The notes under the pieces: generated by a model
Seen by the model: only the letters and a program-made list of their open reading frames with translations
Databases searched by the model: none
What the model was told of the DNA's origin: nothing
Part shown: positions 9,707-14,790 of the stretch, in pieces
Position numbering within the stretch: position 1 is the stretch's first letter
How the letters are laid out: the number at the start of each line of letters is the position of its first letter
Position numbers and translations under genes: made by a program
Source: Methanomethylovorans hollandica DSM 15978
GTDB lineage: Archaea; Halobacteriota; Methanosarcinia; Methanosarcinales; Methanosarcinaceae
DNA: 64,000 bases
Direction: 5' to 3'
Assembly (NCBI RefSeq): GCF_000328665.1
Contig: NC_019977.1
Span: 124,001-188,000 of the forward strand

Positions 9707-10024
9707 TCAGCAATATGCTACAAGATAAGCTGTGTTCTCAGTTTTCTTCTCAGTTTCTCTGTTAGTAGATGAACCCGACGTAGCTCTTGATTCTTTCAGA
9801 ACTCCCAGATCCATTTCCAATTGCTGGATATGCATCTTTGCTCTTTGTACCTTCTTGTTCTCAGCTTTAAGCTTTTCCAGCAGTTCTGCCTTCTTTTCTT
9901 CACTAATGTTTGAATCTGATATTTGCTTCTGGTACTGCTGGGATACTTGAGCATATTTCTTGAACATTTCGTGGAGAGTATCAAGGTTCTTTTCCAGATC
10001 CATTATAGTCTTGTCCATGCCCAT
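9707..10024 (-). CDS. Small coiled-coil protein, function unknown
   Basis: 105 residues (or 103 from the second ATG at 10018). From residue 5 to about 80 the sequence is a nearly continuous heptad-rich helix (LEKNLDTLHEMFKKY, KAELLEKLKAENKKV), then a polar tail rich in Ser/Thr/Glu. An AAGGA ribosome binding site precedes the start. It is encoded convergently with the ABC ATPase with a 14-base gap. No domain recognised; probably cytoplasmic, possibly oligomeric. Complementary frames are less protein-like. Confidence 0.65.
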   Translation of the reverse strand: MGMDKTIMDLEKNLDTLHEMFKKYAQVSQQYQKQISDSNISEEKKAELLEKLKAENKKVQRAKMHIQQLEMDLGVLKESRATSGSSTNRETEKKTENTAYLVAYC

Positions 10025-10256: not shown

Positions 10257-10808
10257 CTAAATTCCTTCAGAAACCTCGCAGACTTGCAATATTGCAGCTT
10301 CTGGGTGGGCATGTATCACTTCATCAAGCTGCTCTTTGCAGTCAGAGAGTATGTCAGAAAAAGTACTGTCCTTCTCAATGAAGTCTACTATAGATTCATT
10401 ATCTGTGAGTTCTACAACATCAAAATCATTTACCATCAACATTATTTCCAGTATAGACCTCTTTATTGAACTCTCACCCTCCTTTTGTGCGCCTATGACA
10501 GCTTTATCATGGTGTTTAAGCTCACCATGCATTTTTTCAATTTCCGGAGAAAGGATGTCCATTCCAGCTTTCATGGCTGCGGATGCAGCAAGCACCTGGA
10601 CAATTAATATTTCATCAGCCTCGAACATATCTCCAATTTCTCTCATGGCTGCTATACATCCTTCATCAGCAAGTATCACAGGATCTATACCTGCTTGTAT
10701 ACCTTCCTTTACAGATGATTTAACTGCTTTTTCATCGCATTCCCGGATAGCCTTTTTTATCCCGAAAAGGATATTGTCTTTTGTTTTTTTCACATCATTT
10801 TTTAGCAC
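10257..10808 (-). CDS. Corrinoid-protein-like protein lacking the B12 histidine motif
   Basis: 183 residues from a GTG at 10808, supported by AGAGGT six bases upstream. Residues 15-95 match the helical cap of methyltransferase corrinoid proteins (MtmC/MtbC/MttC type): VKEGIQAGIDPVILADEG, then AAMREIGDMFEADEI and QVLAASAAMKAGMDIL. The following Rossmann-like domain starts with KAVIGAQKEGESSIKRSI, where true corrinoid proteins have a G-x-V-x-G-D-x-H-D-I-G-K motif whose histidine ligates cobalt. That Asp-His-Gly set is absent, and the domain is short and acidic. So it likely does not bind cobalamin as a methyl carrier; a regulatory or decoy role is inference. Flanked by long AT-rich gaps, own transcription unit. 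Confidence 0.72.
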   Translation of the reverse strand: MLKNDVKKTKDNILFGIKKAIRECDEKAVKSSVKEGIQAGIDPVILADEGCIAAMREIGDMFEADEILIVQVLAASAAMKAGMDILSPEIEKMHGELKHHDKAVIGAQKEGESSIKRSILEIMLMVNDFDVVELTDNESIVDFIEKDSTFSDILSDCKEQLDEVIHAHPEAAILQVCEVSEGI

Positions 10809-11059
10809 AATAATACCTCTCGCATTCCTGTCAATGGTAAGGCAGGATCATTGGAACATATTCGACAAAAACAGAGTTGTATTTAAATCTGGCGAGAGAA
10901 TATGACAAATCATTATTAATTCATTCTATATTTATAAAAAAAGAAAAATTATAGCTGTGTATGCATCAAAATAGAACAAAATCATAACTAAAATAAAATA
11001 ATAATCTTTTCTACTGATTTTAGTGAATAAATTGTTCTATGTAAGAAAAGAAATGTTAA

Positions 11060-14471: not shown

Positions 14472-14790
14472 CTATTTCGCATAAGGATCTGTCTTTTTCC
14501 AAGAATAATGAATTTTAAGCCTACCTCTGGCTGCAAGTCTTCCTGTTGCGGCAGAGTTGACCAGGTCTCTTGAAAGGCCGGTGCGGTCTCCGGCAGTCAT
14601 ATCTTTCAGAGTATTACTTATTATATTCTTGTCAATTCTTGCTTTAGTGCAGCGTCGATCTGTGTGCAGTTCTCCATCCTCTGTAATACGGTTTTTCCAC
14701 CACCAACGCCGCATATTGATAACGCGCAAGTTCCCTTGCAGCAAACATATTTGCAGGACCTGCCCCCAATATGATAACGTAATAATCAGA
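14472..14790 (-). pseudogene. Remnant of an FAD-dependent dehydrogenase (COG2509-like), internally deleted
   Basis: Two frames read one after the other show the two ends of one enzyme. From 14790 down to 14647 the frame gives YYVIILGAGPANMFAAREL, the N-terminal FAD-binding GxGxxN/G motif and following helix, and then a stop. In another frame ending at 14472 there is MTAGDRTGLSRDLVNSAATG followed by RLAARG, the typical C-terminal FAD-binding motif of COG2509-type dehydrogenases (normally A-G-D-G-A-G-x-S-R-G-I-V-x-A-A-A-T-G). About 300 or more residues in between are missing, the frame is shifted, and there is no start codon: an in-frame TGA lies just upstream. A degraded gene is the only simple reading. 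Confidence 0.75.

Follow-up and report, generated by a model that had tools for sequence, protein, structure and literature searches.

Corrinoid proteins are central to the production of methane from methylated compounds. In MttC, the corrinoid is held by a His107–Asp105–Thr158 triad together with loops 101–109 and 138–153, and in the structure of the MttB–MttC complex the cap and the core loops form the main contacts to MttB (PMC9842639). A B12-type fold can also give up cobalamin, as in the heme-binding SCHIC domain of AppA (PMC9144470). Our literature search, which most subscription journals lay outside, did not turn up any account of corrinoid-protein paralogues that lack the cofactor.

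Here, we describe a gene from a window of 64,000 nucleotides of the Methanomethylovorans hollandica DSM 15978 genome (NC_019977.1). Judged from its sequence, the product is very probably a retained, B12-free paralogue of an MttC-type corrinoid protein, which we term a pseudo-corrinoid protein. Sequence comparison of the orthologues shows that the His–Asp–Thr ligand set and a recognisable second Rossmann half have been lost and that purifying selection has maintained this state in each of two genera.

Gene and expression signals

The pseudo-corrinoid protein gene (10257–10808, minus strand) is an intact open reading frame of 183 codons that runs from a GTG at 10808 to a stop at 10257, and its assignment draws on syntenic orthologues. 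A ribosome-binding-site-like GAGAGGT is located at 10815–10821 (minus strand), with GGGAGGT or AGGAGGT at the counterpart site in three orthologues from the genus. A TATA-box-like TTTAAATA at 10880–10887 (minus strand) is kept in four Methanomethylovorans, and TTTATA occupies the same place in most Methanolobus, which suggests that the gene has its own promoter. The start codons of all 16 orthologues described below are apparently GTG or TTG, never ATG, in both genera, possibly reflecting weak initiation. An antisense ORF (10336–10905, plus strand, 189 residues) was rejected as spurious; it is unmatched in orthologous loci.

Orthologues and selection

A search of 112 Methanosarcinaceae genomes recovered 16 full-length orthologues (E ≤ 2e-70), found in four of six Methanomethylovorans and 12 of 27 Methanolobus genomes. 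After a clear gap, other corrinoid proteins of normal length follow at 1e-40 or weaker, and 393 genomes drawn from the phylum yielded no orthologue outside the two genera at E ≤ 1e-45. For one strain with an orthologue (L055) and cap-only relatives, M. vulcani B1d, proteomes from growth on glycine betaine, methanol and trimethylamine are publicly deposited (MassIVE MSV000084013; PMC6855144). The cobalt-ligand histidine is absent in all 16 orthologues and none has an intact D-x-H-x-x-G; recent pseudogenisation or sequencing error is ruled out by these 16 intact orthologues. Whole-gene dN/dS is about 0.08–0.31, and the values for the C-terminal half are mostly below 0.25 (0.49 for one close pair). 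The family-invariant residues of the cap are nearly all identical to their MttC counterparts and those of the C-terminal half are mostly new (e.g. Glu110, Lys116, Glu121, Asn127, Glu133, Asp142, Asp147 and Cys157), which suggests that the cap is constrained to keep its fold, with the second half under new constraint.

An intact copy is missing from 15 of the 27 Methanolobus genomes and from two of the six Methanomethylovorans genomes. At the corresponding locus, a frameshifted remnant persists in one Methanolobus (G033), and one Methanomethylovorans (G003) has only a short gap; from these two cases and the lack of an intact copy in over half of the Methanolobus genomes, we conclude that the gene is dispensable in some lineages. 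The missing copies, the remnant and the GTG or TTG starts in 16 of 16 could point to a decaying, functionless gene, but this explanation is extremely unlikely given 16 intact frames in two genera, dN/dS values far below 1 for either half and new residues that are invariant lineage-wide. The G033 remnant is an example of real decay, unlike the intact orthologues. The first-pass annotation, which had noted a good ribosome-binding site and an unbroken frame and had judged the gene not simply to be decaying, is thus borne out by the GAGAGGT element, the 183-residue ORF and the selection seen across both genera, and the outcome that it had named as refuting, close homologues with an intact D-x-H-x-x-G, did not occur among the 16 orthologues.

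Cap domain

Residues 16–86 match the Pfam family B12-binding_2 (PF02607) with an E value of 1.1e-17 and a score of 64.4 bits, above the gathering cut-off of 23 bits. Together with the helices of the AlphaFold2 model (residues 2–22, 26–38, 43–63 and 69–94), this match defines a four-helix cap spanning residues 2–94 (10527–10805, minus strand), with a mean pLDDT per ten-residue block of 90–98 over residues 11–90. The retained cap positions resemble general fold residues, namely Gly, Ala, Met, Phe and a G-D-x-F-E turn. A [FY]LP[HQ] segment, which by analogy with methionine synthase lies against the upper corrinoid face, is present in 39 of 39 intact proteins; it is found in none of the 16 orthologues and in none of the 36 cap-only proteins (see below) examined. 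A role as a spare cap over the corrinoid of another protein, or as a cofactor chaperone, is disfavoured because this segment, universal in intact relatives, has been replaced.

Cofactor site and second domain

The alignment with MttC (7xcn) covers residues 9–148 of the window protein (E = 1.4e-18) and places Asp105, His107 and Gly110 of MttC opposite Gly111, Ser113 and Lys116. The cobalt-ligand site is therefore degenerate in these alignments, with G-E-S-S-I-K in place of D-x-H-x-x-G at residues 111–116 (10461–10478, minus strand), and no histidine is present in residues 101–165. A match to TIGR02370 (methyltransferase cognate corrinoid protein; E = 3.6e-22) ends at residue 147 and, at 78.7 bits, misses the curated cut-off of 215.3 bits.

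When the C-terminal half alone was compared with the MttC/MtbC/MtmC core by profile–profile alignment (hhalign), 50 columns were aligned with a probability of 91.9; this half therefore represents what is left of the Rossmann core rather than a domain of other origin. This alignment and the structural model assign residues 101–147 (10368–10508, minus strand) to a residual first Rossmann half, β1–α1–β2–α2. Beyond α2, neither the alignment nor the profile comparison recognises any of the core, the triad Thr included, and the Ser/Thr segment and the GG segment found in corrinoid cores are lost. The first corrinoid-holding loop has been rewritten, and the chain ends in a new tail of about 36 residues (148–183; 10260–10367, minus strand) that has no recognisable kinship with corrinoid proteins and carries the family-invariant residues Cys157, Lys158, Pro169 and Gln175. 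The B12-binding family PF02310 was not reported at E ≤ 10 by HMMER, the filters of which drop most matches above about 0.1. No DNA-binding or HTH family was found in the Pfam scan, B12-binding_2 being the only supported match.

The AlphaFold2 model has a mean pLDDT of 78.9, and its second part (β–α–β–α) is of moderate confidence (about 64–72); the underlying alignment included intact corrinoid proteins and may favour a Rossmann-like second domain. A model built from 12 orthologues alone contains the same elements at low confidence, with a poor second domain and a mean pLDDT of 64.9. The closest solved folds are those of MttC (7xcn; Z = 15.7) and MtmC (3ezx; Z = 14.7).

Much of what had been proposed at first pass survives this comparison. 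The resemblance of the helical cap to methyltransferase corrinoid proteins is confirmed by the B12-binding_2 match, the replacement of D-x-H-x-x-G by KEGESSIKRS is correct (residues 109–118 in the MttC alignment), and the second domain has no better structural match than MttC and MtmC. The description of a fold kept without its cofactor needs qualification: the site is lost and much of the fold is kept, but the second domain consists of a half-Rossmann unit and a new tail. The loss of the core beyond α2 and the replacement of the [FY]LP[HQ] segment had been overlooked.

From these features we infer that the window protein binds no B12 at all. Some B12 folds bind cobalamin without a protein histidine, so a corrinoid might still be carried in a His-off state, perhaps completed by a partner protein. 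We regard this as very unlikely, since conserved features have gone from either side of the cofactor site: the Ser/Thr and GG segments in the core and the FLP segment in the cap. Binding of a different ligand, in the manner of AppA SCHIC, is also unlikely. The AppA precedent (PMC9144470), the new conserved polar residues Glu110 and Lys116 in the region of the former site and the presence of the SCHIC structure (4heh) among the weaker fold matches are in its favour, but a Z score of 7.3 carries no significance by itself, the core lacks half of the part that forms the pocket, no histidine lies near the site and a DNA-binding or output domain is absent.

Genomic context

The gene is adjoined by a gene of the isocitrate/isopropylmalate dehydrogenase (Iso_dh) family and a short coiled-coil-like ORF of 105 residues, and in the loci compared in both genera it lies between these two. 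No methyltransferase gene lies beside it, and its surroundings, as well as those of the cap-only genes, are of the housekeeping type only. The suggestion in the first-pass annotation of a regulator or chaperone of methyltransferase systems is thus not supported by these neighbours. The gap to the dehydrogenase gene is about 280 bp, and some genomes keep the dehydrogenase without the pseudo-corrinoid gene.

The coiled-coil-like ORF (9707–10024, minus strand) was matched in seven of the seven Methanomethylovorans and Methanolobus genomes queried (one match, located at a contig end, is partial) and was not matched in any of the five queried from other genera; it also occurs in genomes without the pseudo-corrinoid gene. 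Elsewhere in the window, 14501–14787 (minus strand) is a remnant of an FAD-dependent protein gene of the PF21688 family, in scattered pieces in different frames; the gene is intact in three relatives of the genus, with 476–495 residues.

Cap-only relatives

A search seeded with small cap-containing matches revealed an undescribed family of cap-only proteins of about 105 residues. The 112 genomes yielded 71 matches (E ≤ 7.1e-33), every one from Methanomethylovorans or Methanolobus, and in the 393-genome sample of the phylum matches were likewise confined to these two genera. Two of the 71 contain an in-frame stop. The proteins end with β1 (..FGNLVVGM), just before the D-x-H-x-x-G position. Their genes reach four copies per genome at several separate loci and have housekeeping-type neighbours, including aconitase, U32-peptidase and deaminase genes; no methylotrophic-type methyltransferase was identified among the neighbour proteins scanned.

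The window genome has two cap-only genes outside the window, L036 (G000:C2:619094-619402) and L101 (G000:C2:770632-770934). At L100 (G080:C6:286073-290400), three cap-only genes lie within about 4.4 kb, with tails ending in ..YCC or ..YC; L036 also ends in ..YCC. U32-peptidase-family genes adjoin cap-only genes at two distinct conserved Methanolobus loci (L042, L046, L047, L103 and L111; L043, L045, L105, L107 and L116).

A tree of the caps separates all cap-only proteins, together with the Methanolobus orthologues, from the intact proteins (100/100); the four Methanomethylovorans orthologues join the intact proteins through a long branch. Monophyly of the orthologues is not rejected (p-AU 0.3). 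Because the tree splits the orthologues and one clade is not rejected, we claim no single origin for the cap-only and half-Rossmann forms.

Functional interpretation

We propose that an MttC-type corrinoid protein gave rise to a paralogue that has very probably lost cobalamin binding and is kept by selection, with intact corrinoid proteins persisting elsewhere in the window genome (L048). Less firmly than its B12-free state, the pseudo-corrinoid protein may act as a non-catalytic binding module. Because the MttC cap contacts MttB directly, partner binding by a cap that carries no cofactor is conceivable. The most likely partners would be the methylotrophic contacts of the parent, i.e. a methyltransferase or the reductive activator RamA, the activity of which might be modulated by the pseudo-corrinoid protein, with new contacts supplied by the rewritten half. 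Taken as a whole, this chain from a retained, B12-free protein to a working binding module is our leading but tentative reading; the lack of methyltransferase neighbours, the generic nature of the cap residues and the dispensability of the gene argue against the binding role.

Nearly as likely is exaptation to an unrelated role outside methyl transfer, in which the cap and half-Rossmann unit would possibly serve as a general scaffold, for example in 2-oxoacid or Fe–S metabolism. The conserved Iso_dh-family neighbour and the placement of cap-only genes beside aconitase, U32-peptidase and deaminase genes, with no methylotrophic methyltransferase in the neighbours scanned, are consistent with such a role; however, the TATA-like element, the intergenic gap and the retention of the dehydrogenase alone in other genomes indicate that the neighbour may be irrelevant.

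Extending the binding-module reading, the B12-free caps (16 half-Rossmann and about 70 cap-only) might act in trans on methyltransferase–corrinoid complexes, which we consider doubtful; if true, such caps would tune methylotrophic methanogenesis in Methanomethylovorans and Methanolobus without a cofactor of their own. A selected cofactor-less family with dozens of cap-only relatives makes a function of the cap beyond B12 shielding directly testable. It also calls for caution in annotation, as the cut-off of a Pfam 'B12 binding domain' is passed both by the window protein and by a cap-only protein, the only one of its family scanned.

Comparison with known systems

The window protein differs from TIGR02370 proteins in lacking the D-x-H-x-x-G histidine (Ser113) and a complete Rossmann core, and from B12 regulators of the CarH/LitR type in having no DNA-binding domain in Pfam. 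With AppA SCHIC it shares the surrender of cobalamin by a B12-type fold; SCHIC, however, is bacterial, lies within a larger photoreceptor and has a full core, and it keeps, close to where cobalt was once bound, a histidine for the heme that is absent here. The cap-only proteins resemble the window protein in their B12-binding_2 cap, the absence of a cofactor site and of the FLP segment, and their restriction to the same two genera; they differ in having neither a half-Rossmann unit nor a tail and in occurring as multiple copies at unrelated loci. Compared with MttC (7xcn), the window protein has no adjoining methyltransferase and is without the histidine, its Asp105 and Thr158 partners, the second half of the core and the FLPH segment of the cap; MttC is nonetheless the closest system by both sequence and fold, sharing the cap and the β1–α1–β2–α2 part of the core.
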